From Chloroflexota bacterium (lineage in GTDB: Bacteria > Chloroflexota > Dehalococcoidia > JACVQG01): a stretch of DNA of 46,821 nt. Positions within the stretch are counted from its first letter, which is position 1, and every line of letters starts with the position of its first letter. A program made the position numbers and the translations under genes. Below the pieces are notes generated by a model. It had not been told where the DNA came from. It was given only the letters and a program-made list of their open reading frames with translations, and searched no databases. Positions 200 to 32,502 of the stretch are shown here, in pieces. The stretch is taken from assembly GCA_016210545.1 (NCBI GenBank), contig JACQTY010000040.1, positions 1 to 46,821 of the forward strand, given 5' to 3'.

Positions 200-2136
200 T
201 CAGCCTGTAACGGCAGCGATGATCCTCTGTACAATTTGGATGAGCGCGTCTGCCTGCTGGTTGGTCAGGGCTTTGCCACGTTGCGCATTGACCTGGTTGA
301 CGAAGGCTCCAAGCTGGTTTACCGCTGCCTGCGTCTGCCCCTGCTGTAAAGAGGCCACAGCGGCATCCAGTTTGCTTGTTAGAGAGGTCTCCGTGCCCTG
401 GGGCAAGTTGAGGCCCCTGACAGTATTGGTCAGCGTCTCCGTGGCCTGCGCAGGAGAGAGTACGGTATAGGTGTTGGTAACGGTGGTTACGTTGCCTGCC
501 CTGTCAGTAGCCGTGACGGTGTATGTCTTTACACCCATTGTAGCTGCGTCAACGGCCTGGCCATTAGGGGTGGTGGCCGAAGTGGCGGCCACACCGGACA
601 GAGTGTCCGATACACTCCAGCTTGCCAGCACGGTCTCGCCCTGGATGAACTGCGCGCCATTAGCGGGCGAGGTGATGGCCACTACCGGTGGAGTTTTATC
701 TATGTTGATAGGGCCAAAGCTGGCGCTGGCAGAGTTGCCCGCATTATCGGTGGCAGTGCCGGTAGTAGACGCTATAGAAGCGCTGAAGGTCTGGTCTCCA
801 GTACAACTGGCTATGCCCGAGCCGGAGTCGGCGCAGGTGTAATGGACAGTTACATCCTGGTTGGCCCAGGAATTGGTGGCATGGGCTGAACCATCTGCCT
901 TTCTGGCGTTGGCGGTGATGGTGGGTGGAATCTTGTCAATGTTAATGGGGCCAAAGCTTACACTGGCTGAGTTGCCAGCATTATCGGTGGCCGTGCCGGT
1001 AGTGGATACTGTAGAAACGCTGAACGTCTGGTCTCCCGTACAACTGGCCAGTCCCGACCCACCGGTATCCGAGCAGGAGTAGTGGACAGTTACATCCTGG
1101 TTAGTCCACGAGCCAGGAACATAGGCAGAGCCATCGGCTTTAGTGGCACTGGCGCTGATGGTAGGTGGTATGGTATCGGGGCTAGCAACTCCGAATACCT
1201 GGATGCGGTAGTTAGCGGTATCTGCCACATACACGTTGCCCGAACCGTCCACAGCCACGCCTCTGGGAGCATAGAACCGACCACTCCCGCTACCCCACGT
1301 GCCCCACTTGGTAAGGAATAAGCCGGAATTGCTGAATTTCTGGATGCGGTGGTTGCTCATATCACCCACATAGACGTTGCCCAAGCTATCCATAGCCACA
1401 CCCCAGGGTGCTGAGAACTGGCCATCGCCGCTGCCAAATATGCCCCACTTGGTAAGGAATAAGCCGGAATTGTTGAACTTTTGGATGCGGTGGTTGCTAG
1501 TATCAGCCACATAGACGTTGCCCAAGCTATCTACAGCTACGCCCCTCGGCCAATAAAACTGGCCATTACCACCGCCATATGTGCCCCACTTCGTGAGGAA
1601 AGTGCCGTTGCTACTGAACTTCTGGATGCGGTGGTTGCCGAGGTCAGTCACATAAATATTTCCCGAACTGTCCACGGTAACACTGAAAGGCAATTGGAAC
1701 TGTCCATCACCGCTGCCTGCGCTGCCCCACTTGGTAAGGAAGGCGCCGGTGCTGCTGAACTTCTGGATACGGTGGTTGTTAATGTCGGTCACATAGATAC
1801 TTCCCGAACCGTCCACGGCCACACCGTGAGGATTAATGAACTGTCCATCACCACTCCCATAGCTCCCCCATTTCGTCAAGAATCGGCCAGAATTGCTGAA
1901 TTTCTGGATGCGGTGGTTCCATTGATCGGCCACATAGACGCTGCCCAAGCTGTCCAAAGCCACGCCATACGGTCCGGAAAACTGGCCATCGCCGTTGCCG
2001 TAGCTGCCCCACACTGGGGCGGCGACTCCTCCGCTACAGCCACCGAAGGCAAAAGGAGCCACGTTGCCATCAAAATGATGACAGACAGGACATGAAGACA
2101 CCGCCGTGCACTGGGGGAGCCATTTAACCGTTTCAT
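200..2136 (-). CDS. Secreted NHL-repeat beta-propeller protein with Ig-like and FIMAH domains (apparent frameshift)
   Basis: An ATG at 2136 follows AAGGAG at good spacing and opens a classic signal peptide (MKRL, basic stretch, hydrophobic core, VAVA-EE). The propeller lies in another frame that is open from 2101. In that frame six NHL repeats of about 47 residues (WGSxGxGDGQF...NHRIQKFS..G.FLTK) should form a six-bladed propeller. Two near-identical Ig-like repeats (IPPTI...DNAGNSAS.SFGPINIDK), one further Ig-like domain and a helical C-terminal tail (SLTSKLDAA...FVNQV.AQRGKALT) that I read as a FIMAH domain follow. Adding one base in the four-G run at 2016-2019 joins the frames as EESPPPVWGSYG, giving about 645 residues. 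This is therefore either a sequencing slip or a recent frameshift. An extracellular binding or adhesion role is likely, but the ligand is unknown. A promoter lies upstream. Confidence 0.85.
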
Positions 2137-5700: not shown

Positions 5701-5803
5701 GCGCCGCACCCACTCTGGATTCTCTGGATTCCGGCTCGGAGGCCGGAATGGCAAATTCATATCTTTAGGACTATTGGATTTCAATCAACACAGGAGCGTG
5801 AAC

Positions 5804-7723
5804 ATGGCGACGTCCCCTTACACCGGCAAGATTCTACGGGTAGACCTGTCCACGGGAAAAGCCACGGAGACGCCGACAGAAGCCTACGCCGATCGTTTTC
5901 TGGGCGGGCGCGGCATCGCCGCCAAGATCTATTGGGACGAGGTCCCCGCCGCCGTGAAGGCCCTCGACCCGGAAAACCGGTTGATCTTCGCTATGGGCCC
6001 GCTGGGATGCTACCCGGTTATCGGCGCCAGCCGCTGGGTGGTCTGCGGTAAGTCCCCGGCGCTCAACCCCGAGCATTTCTGCTATTCCAACTTCGGCGGC
6101 CACTGGGGCGCCGAGCTGAAATTCGCTGGCTACGATGCCCTGGTAGTCCACGGCAAGGCATCCAGACCCGTTTACCTCTTCATTCACGACGGCAAGACGG
6201 AGATACGGGACGCCTCGGCGCTGTGGGGCAAGGGGGCGATGGACGCCCGGGAGGCCCTCAAGGCCGAGATGGGCAGTTCAGTCAAGGTGGTCGCCACCGG
6301 CCCGGCCGGCGAGAACCAGGTGGCGCTGGCCACCATACTGGCCGACAACGACGCCAGCGGCTCGGGCGGGCTGGGGGCAGTGATGGGTTCCAAGAACCTC
6401 AAGGCCATCGTGGTTAGGGGCGCCAAAAAGTCCTTCCCGATCGCCGACTCTCAACGATACCGTGAATTCCTCGACACCTTCCGCGTCCTGCGCAAGGGAA
6501 ACCCCATGTCCATCCAGGGGCTAAAAGAAGGGCCTAATACAAAAAAGGACCCGTGCTACGGGTGCATCGGCAGTTGCTCGCGGCGGGTCTACCGGGCGGA
6601 GAACGGGCAGAGCGGCAAGTTCATGTGCCAGGCCAGCCTGTTCTACCAGGCCAGGGCCGACAAGTTCTACGGCAAGCCGACGGAGGTACCCTTCTTCGCT
6701 ACCAAGCTCTGCGACCAGTACGGCGTCGACACCAACACTTTGGACGTCATGCTTCTATGGCTATGGCGCTGCTTCCAGGCGGGCATCATCACCGAGGAGA
6801 CCACCGGTATCCCCCTGTCCAAGCCGGGCAGCCTGGAGTTCATCGAATCCCTGGTCAAGACAGTTGCCTTGCGGCAAGGCTTCGGCGAGGTCCTGGCCGG
6901 GGGAACGTTCAAGGCGGCCGCCCAGTTGGGTCCAAAGGCCCAGGAGCAACTCACCGACTACTTCACCCTGTCCGCCCAACGGGCCGACTACGAGCCCCGC
7001 GTCTACATTGCCAACGCGCTTCTCCTGGCCATGGAGCCACGCATGCCCATTCAGCAAATGCACGAGATAACCCTGCTCGTCGGGCGGTGGCTGAAGTGGG
7101 TGCACAAGGAGCCGGGTGCCTTCGTCTCGAACGACCTTATCCGGGACGTCGCCAGGAAGTTCTGGGGGAGCGAACTGGCCGCCGATTTCTCGACCTATGA
7201 GGGCAAGGCTCTGTGCGCCCTTAAGGTCCAGGACCGTCAGAACGTCAAGGAGAGCCTGGTTCTCTGCGACTGGCTGTGGCCCATCACCGATGTGGAATTC
7301 GCCGACGACCACGTGGGCGACCCGGCCATCGAGAGCAAAGTCTTTTCCATTGTTACCGGCAAGGAAGTCGACGAAGCCGGGCTGAACAAGTTCGGCGAGC
7401 GCATCTTCAACCTTCAGCGGGCCATCATGGCCCGGGAAGGGCATCGCGGCAGAGAAGCCGATACGGTGACACCCGCCTGGTTCACTACACCACTGAAATA
7501 CCACCCCGTGCAGCACGAATGTCTGGTGCCGGGCAAGGATGGCGCCGTGGTCTGCCGCAAGGGCGAGGTGCTCGACAAGCAGAAGTTCGAGGGGATCAAG
7601 GACGAATACTATGCGCTGCGGGGCTGGGATGTGGCCACGGGCCTGCAGACAAAGGCCAAGCTGGCCGAGCTAGGGATGGGTGATGTGGCCGAGGTGCTGC
7701 AAAAGGAAGAACTGTTGGCGTAA
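5804..7723 (+). CDS. Aldehyde:ferredoxin oxidoreductase family protein (tungstopterin)
   Basis: This 639-residue AOR-family enzyme would oxidise aldehydes, or reduce carboxylic acids, using a bis-pterin tungsten (or molybdenum) centre and one [4Fe-4S] cluster. The N-terminal domain begins YTGKILRVDLSTGK and includes FGGHWGAELKFAGYDALVVHGKA. The central part has ASGSGGLGAVMGSKNLKAIVV. Cluster ligands are visible as CYGCIGSC (CxxCxxxC), with the fourth Cys in ESLVLCDW. The C-terminus YYALRGWDVATG is typical. The start at 5804 follows CAGGAG; an upstream in-frame ATG (5774) lacks such a site. The substrate cannot be assigned. No dedicated ferredoxin or partner subunit is adjacent. moaA and moaC, for early pterin synthesis, lie about 31 kb away in this window. 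Confidence 0.9.
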   Translation: MATSPYTGKILRVDLSTGKATETPTEAYADRFLGGRGIAAKIYWDEVPAAVKALDPENRLIFAMGPLGCYPVIGASRWVVCGKSPALNPEHFCYSNFGGHWGAELKFAGYDALVVHGKASRPVYLFIHDGKTEIRDASALWGKGAMDAREALKAEMGSSVKVVATGPAGENQVALATILADNDASGSGGLGAVMGSKNLKAIVVRGAKKSFPIADSQRYREFLDTFRVLRKGNPMSIQGLKEGPNTKKDPCYGCIGSCSRRVYRAENGQSGKFMCQASLFYQARADKFYGKPTEVPFFATKLCDQYGVDTNTLDVMLLWLWRCFQAGIITEETTGIPLSKPGSLEFIESLVKTVALRQGFGEVLAGGTFKAAAQLGPKAQEQLTDYFTLSAQRADYEPRVYIANALLLAMEPRMPIQQMHEITLLVGRWLKWVHKEPGAFVSNDLIRDVARKFWGSELAADFSTYEGKALCALKVQDRQNVKESLVLCDWLWPITDVEFADDHVGDPAIESKVFSIVTGKEVDEAGLNKFGERIFNLQRAIMAREGHRGREADTVTPAWFTTPLKYHPVQHECLVPGKDGAVVCRKGEVLDKQKFEGIKDEYYALRGWDVATGLQTKAKLAELGMGDVAEVLQKEELLA

Positions 7724-25225: not shown

Positions 25226-27417
25226 AGGCCAACTCCCTCTTGCTTGTCTCGCAATCGCCCGAGCGGAGGCGTCTTTTGCCGCCGACCGGACAAGTACCAG
25301 AGAACGCCAACCCCCACCCCAGCCGTGCCAGATAGGAAATAACCGAATAGAAGGATAGCATACCTGCTATGGTAAAGCAAATCCCGTTGGCCGTTACCGG
25401 ACGTGACAAAGGCGTTGGTGACTTCGAGGTTAGCCACCCCCGGGGCGCCATTCAGCCGCCATGCCGGGTCGTAGGGCAACGCGGCCACCAGGTACTTACC
25501 CGTGACTGGCCCCACGTCGTAGCGCACCGGCGACAGTCGCTGGTATTCAACAGGCTGGAAACCATCGGTCGTTCTCACGTCCGGCTTCGGAATCCCCATC
25601 TGGGACGTCTGCCCGTCCAGGATGAAGACCGCGTCGAGCAGGTCCACATCCGGTCGGCCAACAGCATCCAGCAACTGTGGCCACCCGGACGATAACCGAG
25701 ACGCGTCCACAGAGTAGAACGGCGCAACGGGGTGAAGGTTTTCCAGGAGCACCAGCCGTCCGTTCTCCAGGACGACCTTCAGATCGTTCTGACCCCGAAG
25801 GAAGTCGTATTCTTTGTAGTCCGCCTCCTTCGCCAGGATGACGTACTTTATGTTCATAGGGGCTAGCAATTCGCCCAGGCTCGTGACCCGATCTCTATTC
25901 CTGAGCAGAAACGACACATAGTGCTGGGCGGGATCGGTAGACTCGTTGTCAATTGGGCCAACCTCCAGGCTCTCACTCTGGAGCACCGGCCTATCGAAGA
26001 ACCACTTGGCCGGCGTGGCCAATGTCCGTCCAGTCCACGAGAAGGACATGAAGCCATGCCAGGGCAGAAAAAGGACGGTGAAATCTCCCGGTTGCCTGTT
26101 GAGGAAATCGTTCGCCTCCAGCCATTCGATCGGGTACTGCGCAGGCCTGAGCTGCCCCTTGAAACCCCACAGCATGTTCAGTGAATAGGCGAACGGCAAC
26201 GCCAGTACCGCGACTACCAGCGCCACACTGCCGGTTTTCAGCCCCAGCCGGGGACGGCCCGCCTTCGGACGGAGTTGCAACCAGATCTCTTCTGCGCCCA
26301 GCGCGCCCAGGTAGCAATAGGCCAGCACCAGGAGAGCCACCAACTTTTGGGAATCCCGGAAGGCGCGGAGGAAGAACAGGTTATTGAACATGAACTCGTA
26401 GGCGGGCGCGAAGAAGGGGGAGCTGGCGCCACTGCCCAGAAGGAGGGCGCCAAGTCCTATCAGGCCTGCTGCCTTAACTCCGCTGCCCAGCTTTTCGTCC
26501 CCGAACTTGCTCAAAAAACCGTGGACGGCCAGGAAGACGAATACAAGAGCAATGAGATACCAGAACGGAAGCACCTGTGATATGTATGTGACTCCTCCTC
26601 TCCAGAAGCCGTGCATAGAGGCAATCGCCCAGAACACGCTGCCCCCTGCCGTCAAGGGCCTCGCGGAGAAAACCTCCAGATCAGCGCGGCCTATTTGGTG
26701 AAGAAAGCCAGATTTGTGAGTGAAGGCAGGAAGCAACCAATAAAAACTGACGGCGGCGACCGTCGCCGCAAAGACGAGCCCATAAGCAAGGTGAGGGAAC
26801 ATGGTCCGACGCGCCCTCTCCCGGTTGAACGCACGGGCAGCATGCCACAGGACGATGACCACCTGGGCAGCCAGCGTCATAACCATCATGTGCGGGCTGA
26901 ATACACCGACAAGAGACAGCAACAAGGCGGCGGCTACGGCCTTCTTCACTCCAGGGCGCTGAGCAAAGGAGAGCGCGGCCTTGATGGCCAGTGGCGCCAG
27001 GGCATACCCAGCCAGGAACTGCCACTGCCCGGCCATAAAGCGGACGTAGACAAAGGGGTTCAACACATAGAGGATACCGGAGAAACACTTAGCCCACAGG
27101 CTCCGGGCGGGGCTGAGCCGGTGAGCAGAGTAGCCTGCCAGGAAGAGAATCCCGACAAGCAAGAGCTTTTGCACCAGCCACAGGGGAACGAGGCGACCCA
27201 GTAGAGATATGAGCGCCCAGGCGGGCAATTCCCCCCAGATATCGGCCCTTGTGCCGTAAAACCACTCGGCCAGCTTGATTTCCGGGCTGAAGACCATGTC
27301 CAGGGTAAGAATAAAGCCCGGCAGCAGCAACGGGCCGAGTACCAGCAGCGGTACCGTGGCGTACAGTATGAATGGGATTGCCCGGGCCACGAAGGTGGCG
27401 CCCTGCGACCTACCCAC
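25222..27417 (-). CDS. Large polytopic membrane protein, GT-C/YfhO-like
   Basis: This 731-residue protein has about a dozen hydrophobic segments over residues 10-420, then a soluble domain, and a final helix near the C-terminus (YAILLFGYFLSGTAGVGVGVLWYL). The first loop after helix 1 (LTLDMVFSPEI) has an acidic residue at the position where GT-C transferases often carry the catalytic Asp. The layout resembles YfhO and AftD-like membrane glycosyltransferases, but I see no diagnostic signature, so the family call is tentative. The GTG start at 27417 overlaps the end of the polyprenol-phosphate sugar synthase gene by eight bases. It probably uses a polyprenyl-phosphate sugar on the outer face. 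Confidence 0.7.
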   Translation of the reverse strand: MGRSQGATFVARAIPFILYATVPLLVLGPLLLPGFILTLDMVFSPEIKLAEWFYGTRADIWGELPAWALISLLGRLVPLWLVQKLLLVGILFLAGYSAHRLSPARSLWAKCFSGILYVLNPFVYVRFMAGQWQFLAGYALAPLAIKAALSFAQRPGVKKAVAAALLLSLVGVFSPHMMVMTLAAQVVIVLWHAARAFNRERARRTMFPHLAYGLVFAATVAAVSFYWLLPAFTHKSGFLHQIGRADLEVFSARPLTAGGSVFWAIASMHGFWRGGVTYISQVLPFWYLIALVFVFLAVHGFLSKFGDEKLGSGVKAAGLIGLGALLLGSGASSPFFAPAYEFMFNNLFFLRAFRDSQKLVALLVLAYCYLGALGAEEIWLQLRPKAGRPRLGLKTGSVALVVAVLALPFAYSLNMLWGFKGQLRPAQYPIEWLEANDFLNRQPGDFTVLFLPWHGFMSFSWTGRTLATPAKWFFDRPVLQSESLEVGPIDNESTDPAQHYVSFLLRNRDRVTSLGELLAPMNIKYVILAKEADYKEYDFLRGQNDLKVVLENGRLVLLENLHPVAPFYSVDASRLSSGWPQLLDAVGRPDVDLLDAVFILDGQTSQMGIPKPDVRTTDGFQPVEYQRLSPVRYDVGPVTGKYLVAALPYDPAWRLNGAPGVANLEVTNAFVTSGNGQRDLLYHSRYAILLFGYFLSGTAGVGVGVLWYLSGRRQKTPPLGRLRDKQEGVGL

Positions 27418-28346: not shown

Positions 28347-29624
28347 ATGACAATTGTCGCTAATGAGCTGGAAGTAAAAGGACAGGCCGCCCGGGCAGCC
28401 GCCCGCAAAATGGCGTTCCTTCCCACCGAGGTCAAGAACAAGGCTCTTCTCAGCATCGCTGAGACGCTGAGCACGCAAGAGGCCGCCATCCTGACAGCCA
28501 ACAAGAAGGACTACGAGGCGGGCCTGGCAGCCAGCATGAGCGAAGCGCTTCTGGACCGTCTCCTTCTGAACCGCAACCGGCTCCAGGGTATGGCCAGCGA
28601 TGTAAGGTCTCTGGCCGCCCTTCCCGATCCCGTGGGCGAGGTCTTCGATATGCACACCCTCCCCAACGGGCTAACCGTTGGCCGCAAACGGGTGCCCCTG
28701 GGCGTTATTGGCGCCATTTACGAGAGCCGACCCAATGTGACTGTGGACATCTCCGCTTTGTGCCTCAAATCGGGCAACGCTGTAATCCTCCGAGGCGGTA
28801 AGGAAGCGCTGAATTCCAACGCCGCCCTGGCCCATGCGGTCCAACAAGCAGCAGTGAAGGCTGGGGTACCCCAGGACGCTGTCCAGTTCGTCGAGAACAC
28901 CGACCGCTCCCTGGTCGGCGAGATGCTCCAGATGAAGGACACTATAGACCTGCTTATCCCCAGGGGCGGGGAAGGGCTGATCCGCTTTGTCCGGGACAAC
29001 GCCAGTATGCCGGTGGTGGCCGGGGGCATCGGTGTATGCCACACCTACGTGGACAGCACGGCCGACCTGGACAAGGCCGTGGCCATCGTGTACAACGCCA
29101 AGGTGCAGCGTCCCACCGTGTGCAACGCCCTCGACACCGTCCTGGTGCACCGGGACATGGCCCAGCGTTTCCTGCCCAGGCTGGCCTACGAGCTGGGCAA
29201 GGCCGGCGTCGAGCTCCACGCCGACGAAGAAGCCTTGAACATCCTCAACCGGGAGCCGGCGGTGAAGGCCATCCCCGCCACACCTGAGGACTGGGGCAAG
29301 GAGTTCCTTGCCCTCATTGCTGCCGTCAAGGTGGTGAATTCCTTAGACGAGGCGCTGGCCCACATTGACCGCTACGGCTCCGGGCACTCCGAAGCCATAG
29401 TTACCGAGAACTACACCGTGGCGCAGCGTTTCCTCAACGAAGTGGACGCAGCCTGCGTATACGTGAACGCCAGCACCCGCTTCACCGACGGCGGGCAATT
29501 CGGCCTCGGGGCTGAGGTGGGTATCTCTACCCAGAAACTTCACGCCCGCGGGCCTATGGGGCTGAAGGAACTAACCAGCTACAAGTGGATAGTCTACGGA
29601 CAGGGGCAGGTGAGACCGGGATAG
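28347..29624 (+). CDS. proA: Glutamate-5-semialdehyde dehydrogenase (gamma-glutamyl phosphate reductase)
   Basis: This 425-residue NADPH-dependent enzyme reduces gamma-glutamyl phosphate to glutamate 5-semialdehyde, the second step of proline synthesis. Family features are RKRVPLGVIGAIYESRPNVTVD, CLKSGNAVILRGGKEA, IDLLIPRGGEGLIRFV, the catalytic Cys in QRPTVCNALDT, and the C-terminal TDGGQFGLGAEVGIST and ARGPMGLKELTSYKW. Length is normal. GGGGTGA precedes the ATG. proB and proC are not in this window, so the gene stands apart from its pathway. The next gene, 42 bp on, is unrelated but may share the transcript. Confidence 0.95.
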   Translation: MTIVANELEVKGQAARAAARKMAFLPTEVKNKALLSIAETLSTQEAAILTANKKDYEAGLAASMSEALLDRLLLNRNRLQGMASDVRSLAALPDPVGEVFDMHTLPNGLTVGRKRVPLGVIGAIYESRPNVTVDISALCLKSGNAVILRGGKEALNSNAALAHAVQQAAVKAGVPQDAVQFVENTDRSLVGEMLQMKDTIDLLIPRGGEGLIRFVRDNASMPVVAGGIGVCHTYVDSTADLDKAVAIVYNAKVQRPTVCNALDTVLVHRDMAQRFLPRLAYELGKAGVELHADEEALNILNREPAVKAIPATPEDWGKEFLALIAAVKVVNSLDEALAHIDRYGSGHSEAIVTENYTVAQRFLNEVDAACVYVNASTRFTDGGQFGLGAEVGISTQKLHARGPMGLKELTSYKWIVYGQGQVRPG

Positions 29625-29666
29625 ATCGGGAATACAACACCGTCAGGAACCGAAAAGGAGGACCAC

Positions 29667-31421
29667 TTGCAATTCCTCCTGGGACCCCAGCGCACCTCAT
29701 TATTCCTGCTCATCGCCGAGATCATAGTCCTGCTCGGCCTCTTCTACGGCTTCTACCTGATACGCTTCCGGCGAAAGGCCAAGGCCCACCATCACAACCA
29801 GACCACTTTTGTGTTAGTAAACCTGGGCCTTATCCTGCTGGTGATGGTCTTCGGGTTCTACCGTTACGTCGTCCAGGGAGGCGCCGCCAGCCCGGCAGTC
29901 GCCCGGATGATGATAGGTCACGCTGCTGTGGGGACTGTGGCCGAATTGATGGGGATCTACATCCTTATTGGAATGGGCAACCGCTTGCCCGAACGGCTGC
30001 AGATTACCAAGCCCAGGGGCATAATGCGGCTGACTCTGGCGCTGTGGACCCTGGCGGCTATTGGCGGCTTCGTCATCTATTACGCTCAGTATATAGCCAC
30101 AGCCCCTTCCGGTAAGCAAACGGGAACATCGACTCCTGCGCCATTCCCGACCACTGTCGGGGCCTTTGCCCTGGCAGGCTGGTCCGACAGGGAAGGGCCA
30201 AATGACAGCCTTACTCTGATAGTGGCCGACCTGCCGCCTCAAGCTTACGGTACGGTCTACCAGGGGTGGCTCGTGTCCAGCGCTTCCGCTGTTTTTGAGT
30301 CCCTGGGCATCCTGGAGGTCTCTGGAGATGGGACTGGCCTTCTAGCCTATCGTTCCCCGGGCGCCATTAATCTTCTCGGCGCCTATGACCGAGTATTAGT
30401 CACGGAGGAGAAGTCGCCGGCCGGCAAAGCGGGGCCATCTACTTCTACTGTGCTTGCCGGGAAAATGCCTTCGCAGGCTGGGATCCACCTCCAGCACCTG
30501 CTGGTCCAGGTACCCGGCTCACCGCTCGGCCTGGGTTCAGTGGATGCTTTGCGCCTCCACATGTTCGCCCTGGTAGTCCACTCCAATGAGATAGAGTCTG
30601 CCCGCAGGCGGGGCAATCTGGACTCGATGAAACGTCACGCGGAGCACGTCATCAACCTGGTCGAGGGCCAGTCGGGAAAGGACTACGGCGACCTGAACCG
30701 GGATGGATTTGTTCAGGACCCCGGAGACGGTTACGGGCTTCTGGCGTACGCCGCGCTCGCCTCTGCACAGGCCAGGTTGGCCAACGATGCCGCGGACGCC
30801 ACACCAGCTATCGCGACCCACGCCCCGCACGTAATCACCACAGCAGATAACATCAGCAAATGGGCAACACAGGTCAGAGACCATGCCCTGACGGTCATCA
30901 ATGCCGCCAGCCTCCAGGGAATGGAGTCCACCACAACCAACTCGATGACTCTCTCGGCCCGCGCCCTGGCGGGCTACGATGGAAACGACGACGGCGTGAT
31001 TTCTCCAATCCCCAATGAGGGCGGACTCGTGCAGCTACAGGCTCATGCTAAGATGATGGCCACGTTGGTCCTCCGGGCTGGACCGGGGGTCCCCATGCAG
31101 ACTCTCCGGCAGGCCACTCCGCCGGCACGGCCCACACCGACTCCGTCACCCGGCCCACAGACGGCGACGGTGCTGATGGAGGAGTTCGTGTACAAGGAGA
31201 AAACCATGATCATCAAGAAGGGCACTACCGTGATCTGGGTCAACAACGACCAGGCCGCACACAATGTCGTCCACGACGCCGGGGGGTTCAGGTCTGGCAG
31301 CCTGGCCAGGGGCGCTACTTACTCATTCAGCTTTAATGAGGCGGGGAGATTCCCTTACTTCTGCGAGTTCCACGGGGACAAAGGTGGAATAGACATGGCG
31401 GGCCTCGTGGTCGTGGACTGA
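29667..31421 (+). CDS. Membrane-anchored multidomain protein with C-terminal cupredoxin
   Basis: This 584-residue protein combines several parts. Residues 1-145 hold four hydrophobic helices with conserved His positions (KAHHHNQTTFVLVNLG, MIGHAAVGTVAELMGIYILIG), resembling the DUF420 family of small membrane proteins. Residues 165-270 resemble the extracytoplasmic domain of RskA-type anti-sigma factors (QGWLVSSASAVFESLGILEV). Residues 290-450 are helical with two Ca-binding-like loops (DLNRDGFVQDPGDG, DGNDDGVISP). After a Pro/Thr linker, residues 495-584 form a plastocyanin-like domain with type 1 copper ligands visible as AAHNVVHD and CEFHGDKGGIDM. The start is a TTG with AAAAGGAGG five bases upstream. 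Electron transfer or copper sensing outside the cell is plausible but unproven. Confidence 0.8.
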   Translation: MQFLLGPQRTSLFLLIAEIIVLLGLFYGFYLIRFRRKAKAHHHNQTTFVLVNLGLILLVMVFGFYRYVVQGGAASPAVARMMIGHAAVGTVAELMGIYILIGMGNRLPERLQITKPRGIMRLTLALWTLAAIGGFVIYYAQYIATAPSGKQTGTSTPAPFPTTVGAFALAGWSDREGPNDSLTLIVADLPPQAYGTVYQGWLVSSASAVFESLGILEVSGDGTGLLAYRSPGAINLLGAYDRVLVTEEKSPAGKAGPSTSTVLAGKMPSQAGIHLQHLLVQVPGSPLGLGSVDALRLHMFALVVHSNEIESARRRGNLDSMKRHAEHVINLVEGQSGKDYGDLNRDGFVQDPGDGYGLLAYAALASAQARLANDAADATPAIATHAPHVITTADNISKWATQVRDHALTVINAASLQGMESTTTNSMTLSARALAGYDGNDDGVISPIPNEGGLVQLQAHAKMMATLVLRAGPGVPMQTLRQATPPARPTPTPSPGPQTATVLMEEFVYKEKTMIIKKGTTVIWVNNDQAAHNVVHDAGGFRSGSLARGATYSFSFNEAGRFPYFCEFHGDKGGIDMAGLVVVD

Positions 31422-31722: not shown

Positions 31723-32502
31723 TCACGCCAGCCCGCCGGCCAGCAGCGCCGCGCCCAGCGCCCCTGTTAGCAGCGGGTCCGGCGGCACGAGTAGCTTCTC
31801 GCCCAGCCTGGACTCGATGGCCTTCACCAGACCCTGGTCTCTGGCCCCCCCGCCAGTGAAAGCCACCTCTTTCTCCAGGCGGACCCTTTGCACCAACGAG
31901 ACTACCTTTACAGCCATCGAGTCGTGCACGCCCGCCATGATGTCCTCTTTGGAAGCCCCCTCGGCGATGCGGGAGATGGCCTCCGACTCGGCGAAGACAG
32001 CGCAGCTAGTAGTGAACTGGACCACTTCCCTGGACCTGGCGGACAGGACGGCGAATTCCTCCAGCGGCGTCTGCAGCACTCGCGCCATCACCTCCAGAAA
32101 GCGGCCGCTCCCCGAGGCGCACTTCTCGCTCACCACGAAGTCGACAGCCTCCCCCTGGAGGTTCACCTTCATCACCCGCGTCGCCTGTCCACCCATGTCT
32201 ATGACCGTTCTCACCTGGGGAAAGAAGTGATGCACCCCTTTGGAATGTGCGGATATCTCGGTGGCTCTCCCCGCCTCATAGGGGACGTTGGCTGCGCCGG
32301 ACCCGGTAACGACAATCCTGGCGAGCTCACTTGTTGATAGGCCCGCCCGGGCCAGGATCGCCCCCAGCACGGTCTCCGCCGCCTTTCGGTAGTCCCCGCC
32401 GGAGCGAATGACTTCGGAGCCGGCCATGACACCGTCCTTCACCACCACCGCTTTGGCCGTCACCGAGCCGATGTCTACGCCCGCTATCCAGATTACTGCC
32501 AC
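31723..32502 (-). CDS. BadF/BadG/HgdC-type ATPase activator
   Basis: This 259-residue ASKHA-fold ATPase is of the type that activates 2-hydroxyacyl-CoA dehydratases and benzoyl-CoA reductases by ATP-driven electron injection. It shows IAGVDIGSVTAKAVVV (phosphate 1), VVTGSGAANVPYE, TVIDMGGQATRVMKV (phosphate 2), and the two cluster cysteines in SEKCASGSGRFLE and TTSCAVFAESE that hold a [4Fe-4S] across the dimer. The adenosine motif is VAFTGGGARDQGLV. The usual dehydratase or reductase subunits (HgdA/B or BcrB/C-like) are not adjacent, so its partner is unknown. The start is a GTG with weak GAGAG upstream. It lies 14 bp after the PIN gene and may be read from that operon. Confidence 0.9.
   Translation of the reverse strand: MAVIWIAGVDIGSVTAKAVVVKDGVMAGSEVIRSGGDYRKAAETVLGAILARAGLSTSELARIVVTGSGAANVPYEAGRATEISAHSKGVHHFFPQVRTVIDMGGQATRVMKVNLQGEAVDFVVSEKCASGSGRFLEVMARVLQTPLEEFAVLSARSREVVQFTTSCAVFAESEAISRIAEGASKEDIMAGVHDSMAVKVVSLVQRVRLEKEVAFTGGGARDQGLVKAIESRLGEKLLVPPDPLLTGALGAALLAGGLA

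Follow-up and report, generated by a model that had tools for sequence, protein, structure and literature searches.

CtaM (YozB; DUF420, PF04238), which acts in oxidase assembly in Bacillus and Staphylococcus, is a protein with four membrane helices. In the accessible part of a 2026 paper (PMC13344008), copper export is proposed for CtaM, ctaM mutants are described as copper-sensitive, and planctomycete fusions of a Sco domain with DUF420 are put forward as support. According to the part of another paper that was available (PMC9145763), hemes a and a3 are formed without CtaM, which therefore argues against a haem-making role, and CtaM is listed among the proteins with unassigned function. Two further groups of proteins are relevant here, namely the membrane-anchored blue copper proteins of the plastocyanin, amicyanin and halocyanin families, and the Chloroflexota RskA_C Ser/Thr kinases and anti-sigma-like proteins, in which a beta domain is followed by a helical domain with Ca-type loops. 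The type 1 sites of blue copper proteins hold copper tightly and usually carry electrons.

We analyzed a gene in which parts of these systems are joined. It lies in a stretch of 46,821 nucleotides from a Chloroflexota bacterium (class Dehalococcoidia; GenBank assembly GCA_016210545.1, contig JACQTY010000040.1), and the whole of this stretch is referred to as the window. The gene occupies positions 29,667 to 31,421 of the forward strand, as do all features of the protein given below, and encodes 584 amino acid residues and a stop codon in a single open reading frame with Pfam matches and orthologues. An AGGAGG ribosome-binding site (29,656-29,661, forward strand) is located five bases upstream of the TTG start codon, and the start residue is the same in two orthologues, where the codon is GTG (genome G028) or ATG (genome G001). 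An Aldedh-family gene (28,347-29,624) ends 42 bases before the start, and a BcrAD_BadFG gene for a BadF/BcrA-type ATPase (31,723-32,502) follows on the opposite strand. An assembly chimera was considered and rejected as very unlikely, because the identical domain order is found in G028, a genome of another family, with 58% identity over the full length.

From the N- to the C-terminus, the Pfam matches and models delimit a DUF420-like four-helix membrane domain (residues 1-145, 29,667-30,101), an RskA_C-like beta domain (about residues 167-266, 30,165-30,464), a helical domain with Ca-type loops (about residues 269-464, 30,471-31,058), a Pro/Thr-rich linker (about residues 470-495, 31,074-31,151) and a plastocyanin-type cupredoxin (residues 496-584, 31,152-31,418). 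The protein scored 37.2 bits against Copper-bind (PF00127), above the cut-off of 21.2, and 26.7 bits against Cupredoxin_1, slightly below the cut-off. Its RskA_C score of 23.4 bits is below the cut-off of 29.4, which is exceeded by the two orthologues (39.2 and 31.9 bits). The DUF420 score is 16.7 bits, below the cut-off of 30.5, with positions 7-128 of the 130 profile positions covered; the orthologues score 24.3 and 21.6 bits over nearly the full profile, also below the cut-off, and a more distant fusion protein from genome G671 scores 18.9 bits. No Pfam family matched the helical domain of the window protein. The AlphaFold model of residues 1-152 consists of four long helices (mean pLDDT 89.5), and that of residues 146-584 (mean pLDDT 88.5) contains the beta domain with its strands, the helical domain with helices of high confidence, and the cupredoxin, the linker being of low confidence. 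A preliminary description, made from the letters of the window, had read the same domains in a single protein; the one reading frame, the ribosome-binding site, the conserved start and the full-length orthologue bear this out, and the domain reading agrees with Pfam, the orthologues and the models. The parts of the DUF420-cupredoxin architecture are already known, and no description of their combination was found in the literature searched, which was largely open-access.

The membrane domain is like CtaM in its four helices and in the conserved His near residues 41 and 85, R121, G134 and Y138, and a profile of 17 non-CtaM rows matched a profile of five CtaM rows with a probability of 95 over 116 columns. 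It is unlike CtaM in that the fusion scores below the Pfam cut-off, lacks the third His of CtaM, has M60 and M120 and carries three outer domains. In the four fusions that we found, the column of the third CtaM His (residue 116) is occupied by P, F, Y and W. The CtaM clade, in contrast, scored 124-135 bits against DUF420 in the three rows tested, has the third His and lacks M60 and M120. Judged from these alignments, the membrane domain is a homologue of CtaM because the profiles match, but lies outside the CtaM clade because the traits of the clade differ.

Eight columns are invariant in all 18 non-CtaM DUF420-like rows (L15, H41, M60, H85, G89, M120, G134 and Y138), and four of the eight are His or Met, although these two residues make up 6.3% of the residues in the same rows. 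H85 (29,919-29,921, outer third of helix 3) and Y138 (30,078-30,080, outer side of helix 4) are also present in 5/5 CtaM-clade rows, and M60 (29,844-29,846, outer third of helix 2) and M120 (30,024-30,026, inner side of helix 4) in 0/5. H41 (29,787-29,789, inner side) is directly followed by Cys in all seven stand-alone rows from the class to which the window belongs. Residue counts along the model helices put M60, H85 and Y138 at roughly one level toward the outer side, and H41 and M120 toward the inner side. The angle to the conserved face does not exceed 40 degrees for M60, H85, M120 and Y138 and is 60 degrees for H41. For helices 2 and 4 the conservation moment exceeded chance (permutation p 0.001 and 0.0125), which it did not for helices 1 and 3 (p 0.44 and 0.67). 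Four His-containing helices had been reported for this domain; its His residues are confined to positions 41-43 and 85, and two of them are conserved. No two His residues of the membrane domain are at one depth in the model, where the candidate His/Met pair by residue count is H85 and M60, and a structural search of the PDB with the four-helix model gave no significant match (best E 0.29), so that the structure check for haem or quinone sites offered no support for either. A second structural comparison of the same model returned common four-helix bundles with Z up to 14.3 and was treated as uninformative.

The C-terminal domain is, on alignment and modelling, a plastocyanin-type cupredoxin with a predicted type 1 copper site. 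Alignment to plastocyanin gives the ligands H532 (31,260-31,262, aligned to amicyanin as well), C566 (31,362-31,364), which is the sole Cys of the protein, H569 (31,371-31,373) and M577 (31,395-31,397), that is, the full His-Cys-His-Met set, with a longer loop between H569 and M577 than in plastocyanin. The cupredoxin model matched the purple cupredoxin 5fc9 with Z 14.3 and rmsd 1.0 over 81 aligned residues. Fold and ligands are like those of the membrane-anchored blue copper proteins, whereas the anchor here is a four-helix CtaM-like domain with a spacer of about 320 residues. Lys and Arg number five in the loop between helices 1 and 2 and four in that between helices 3 and 4, against one in the N-terminus and one in the loop between helices 2 and 3; from this distribution and the positive-inside rule, both ends of the membrane domain and the copper site are probably outside the membrane. 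The type 1 site of the preliminary description is upheld in its fold and all four ligands by Pfam, the plastocyanin alignment and the 5fc9 match. Its proposal of a quinol- or haem-linked copper carrier holds in the copper part (fold, ligands and probable outside position), but no positive evidence for haem or quinol was obtained.

The window protein shares with the Chloroflexota RskA_C Ser/Thr kinases and anti-sigma-like proteins the beta domain and the Ca-loop helical domain after it, but has no kinase or anti-sigma domain and carries the DUF420-like domain and the cupredoxin instead. A profile of this two-domain module matched 98 of the 380 genomes sampled from the phylum. Ten module proteins were scanned: RskA_C was found in all ten, a kinase domain in five and an N-terminal zinc ribbon in two (one by Pfam, one by our own reading); by our own reading two have a signal-like start and a hydrophobic end, and one, cut at the end of its locus, has two RskA_C copies. 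Many Chloroflexota Ser/Thr kinases have the module (loci L071-L098) as their outer part, and the helical half of the module has no Pfam family in the scanned proteins. The helical domain contains two loops that may bind Ca, at D342-G357 (30,690-30,737) and D438-G453 (30,978-31,025). In the 20 other rows of the module alignment (the alignment minus the three close fusions, with G671 included among the 20), G355 and G357 are kept in 20, D354 in 19, D438 in 20 and E451 in 19. As the module occurs with various partners in the phylum and the best-kept positions are in the Ca-type loops, we read the module as a widespread recombining outer spacer or sensor domain, with no evidence for sigma-factor control. 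The anti-sigma-like domain noticed earlier is thus present as an RskA_C-like beta domain, but not as a sigma-binding domain, and a true anti-sigma factor of the RskA type was rejected, since the N-terminal part is built of four membrane helices whose loops comprise about 16 residues. We also considered whether the helical domain has a conserved metal site of the His-x-x-His type, which was unsupported as a general feature; in the 20 other rows H274 is kept in 14, H277 in 12, H385 in 12, H388 in 7, H324 in 8 and H327 in 6, and the Ca-loop positions are better kept. The top structural row for the helical spacer, 7x8v_A (Z 15.1, rmsd 2.5, 149 aligned residues, 8% identity), was treated as a common arrangement.

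The fusion is present in four Chloroflexota genomes from two classes (the window genome G000, G028, G001 and G671) and is the sole DUF420-family match in each of them. Searching 60 genomes, which comprised the window's own and its relatives, detected it besides the window in G028 and G001. The G001 relative has 61% identity up to residue 490, with its cupredoxin in another frame. Note that this frame change (contig C66, L117, 284-2,000) is at the linker and is either a real break or an assembly error. The protein of G671, from another class, has 754 amino acid residues and begins with an additional N-terminal helix, after which come the DUF420-like domain, a first cupredoxin, the module and another cupredoxin, so that the architecture first noticed in the window recurs with its order changed. 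A single origin of the membrane domain of the fusions was unsupported, as a branch separating the four fusion rows from the rest occurred in 4% of the bootstrap trees. When the whole protein was used in a broad search of genome contigs, a single cupredoxin match was obtained, and no relative was found in the plasmid and viral collections. In the planctomycete Sco-DUF420 fusions, as given in the accessible part of PMC13344008, DUF420 is likewise joined to an outer copper-binding domain, which is a Sco domain there and a type 1 cupredoxin here; the comparison is one of described domain composition. The G028 genome also encodes a poly-cupredoxin, an open frame of 1219 aa (contig C19, 21,653-25,051, reverse strand) in which ten Copper-bind matches follow one another, and has about 0.8 kb from it a Sco match (25,888-26,202, forward strand).

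With profiles of the membrane domain, matches were obtained in 7 of 393 genomes from the class and 22 of 380 from the phylum, and with the widest profile in 11 of 353 class genomes; the three samples overlap, and the fusions are counted in them. Fourteen of the 22 genomes from the phylum search were used for a DUF420 tree of 23 rows. G469, G497, G511, G602, G633 and G719 were left out because their family (f110) was already represented, as were G597 (stop codon within the match) and G556 (partial match), and also G271 (weak, among the 12 places found with the widest profile) and G299 (E 9e-4, internal stop). The tree contains a CtaM clade of five rows (support 100/100) and a clade of seven rows from the class (100/99); the seven other stand-alone rows do not form one clade. 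Four CtaM-type genes are located within a few kilobases of cox genes, in G443, G427, G591 (by tblastn) and G556 (by position, partial match).

We also scanned the open frames of 25 DUF420-bearing loci with a cupredoxin profile. The loci (4 fusions, 7 stand-alones from the class, 9 other stand-alones and 5 from the CtaM clade) are 3 to 47 kb each, four of them being only about 3.4 kb. Cupredoxins were present at six, either fused (four) or as a neighbouring gene (two), which was expected because the profile was built from 11 cupredoxins with these hits included; the informative part of the scan is that no cupredoxin was found elsewhere in the 25 loci. In G134, a 1.8-Mb genome with a single Copper-bind match, the gene of that match is divergent from the stand-alone DUF420-like gene, and in G108 the DUF420-like gene is divergent from a cupredoxin gene that is one of four Copper-bind matches. 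Both of these cupredoxins have lipoprotein-like starts by our own reading, and COX1 gave no match in either genome. It is thereby shown that a divergent relative of CtaM is repeatedly paired with a type 1 copper protein. The G108 pair has a Rieske gene next to it, and in G134 (L163, contig C4, 58,038-59,400) a YgbA_NO gene directly follows the DUF420-like gene; with these neighbours, a redox or NO context is as visible as a copper context. The other five of the seven class loci have no cupredoxin near, nor do the 9 other stand-alone and 5 CtaM-clade loci. Three of those five class loci (L162, L165 and L168, in G014, G280 and G031) adjoin a B12-binding or radical SAM gene by Pfam, and the other two have comparable neighbours by our own reading.

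All four fusion genomes have COX1-family genes above the cut-off, and three of the four have a Sco match. In G671, four open reading frames separate the end of the fusion from COX2, which lies about 6 kb downstream on the same strand, and COX1 is about 7 kb away; the stretches examined around the fusion in the window, G028 and G001 contained no cox genes. A stretch that reads HPAQQV, which we take to be NO-reductase-like, is present in one of the COX1-family genes of G028 and in the clear one of G001, a genome that is 66% complete. The glutamine substitution used for this reading is described in the available part of PMC8756737.

Our preferred reading, to which we assign a probability of about 40%, is that of a blue copper protein tethered in the membrane, with a CtaM-like domain that handles Cu(I) on behalf of the cupredoxin in the same molecule. 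The DUF420-like domain would be in the membrane with both ends outside, the RskA_C-like and Ca-loop helical domains would form a spacer, and the Pro/Thr linker would carry the cupredoxin toward outer electron-transfer partners. Copper may be bound at an inner-mouth His/Met site (H41 and M120) and at a site in the outer third (M60, H85 and Y138); both could take up or pass on Cu(I), presumably in the direction that loads the type 1 site, and the loaded cupredoxin would then carry electrons. We infer copper handling by the membrane domain from the pairing with a cupredoxin, the His/Met positions and the proposal made for CtaM in the accessible part of PMC13344008. The full type 1 site, the fusion in four genomes, the invariant H41, M60, H85 and M120, and the paired neighbours suggest Cu(I) handling, whereas the lack of a cupredoxin at most stand-alone loci, the absence of the third CtaM His and the lack of a supported clade of fusions count against it. 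More generally, and as a doubtful extension, the non-CtaM DUF420-like proteins may be small membrane Cu(I) carriers, four-helix bundles with a pair of His/Met sites, one at either face, and may load blue copper proteins dedicated to them in a process independent of cytochrome oxidase, the fusion being carrier and client in one molecule.

The partner of the cupredoxin could also be an electron donor, since a type 1 site usually carries electrons. In this main rival, which we consider rather unlikely, the DUF420-like domain binds haem (e.g. with H85 and M60) or oxidises quinol and passes electrons through the cupredoxin to an oxidase or NO reductase. The complete type 1 site, the COX1-family genes in all four fusion genomes, the similar depth of M60 and H85 and the Rieske and YgbA_NO neighbours of the stand-alone pairs are consistent with such an input, but there is no His-His pair at one depth, no haem or quinone protein matched the structure significantly, and hemes a and a3 form without CtaM (available part of PMC9145763). 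It is unlikely that the fusion combines the task of CtaM with an outer copper carrier as an oxidase assembly factor delivering copper to a CuA or CuB site: homology to CtaM, the position upstream of COX2 in G671, and the status of the fusion as sole DUF420-family match in four genomes that all have COX1-family genes agree with this role, and yet type 1 sites hold copper tightly, the divergent pairs are in two genomes without detected COX1, no cox genes were found in the stretches examined around the other three fusions, Sco is also present in three of the four genomes, and the clear COX1-family gene of G001 (66% complete) is NO-reductase-like by our own reading.

Among rows that share 20-30% identity, eight invariant columns, four of which are His or Met, exceed what an anchor would require, which makes it quite unlikely that the DUF420-like domain merely holds a copper carrier in the membrane, even though the lipoprotein-like anchors that we read in the two pair cupredoxins indicate that anchoring of such cupredoxins is common. 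The membrane copper or redox sensor suggested in the preliminary description, in which the outer module would sense copper or redox state and signal via the membrane domain, gains something from the finding that Ser/Thr kinases and zinc-ribbon proteins of the phylum carry the module as their outer part. It is nevertheless very unlikely, as the protein has no kinase, sigma-binding or other cytoplasmic output domain, its inner loops are about 16 residues long, and the scan of window proteins, which covered a subset of the open reading frames, recognised no sigma factor.

As a second fusion kind unrelated to the Sco-DUF420 proteins, together with a neighbouring-gene form in genomes without detected COX1, the pairing would favour copper over haem a and would separate the chemistry of the DUF420 membrane family from the oxidase. 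Moreover, as the candidate copper handler in the membrane and a domain whose colour reports copper state belong to the same polypeptide, copper loading could be followed by spectroscopy, and the function of DUF420 is testable there.

The preliminary description had regarded the genome as apparently anaerobic, which does not fit its content of two CuA-type oxygen reductases: two COX1 genes of G000 encode an HPAVY active-site stretch, and each of them adjoins a COX2 gene with a CuA-type Cys-Cys-His-Met motif. The window also encodes an aldehyde ferredoxin oxidoreductase (5,774-7,723, forward strand), which, like the BadF/BcrA-type ATPase, is usual in anaerobic metabolism. With anaerobic-type genes and two CuA-type oxidases, the organism is perhaps facultative. 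Near the beginning of the window (200-2,101, reverse strand) there is a gene for an NHL-repeat protein with a C-terminal FIMAH domain.
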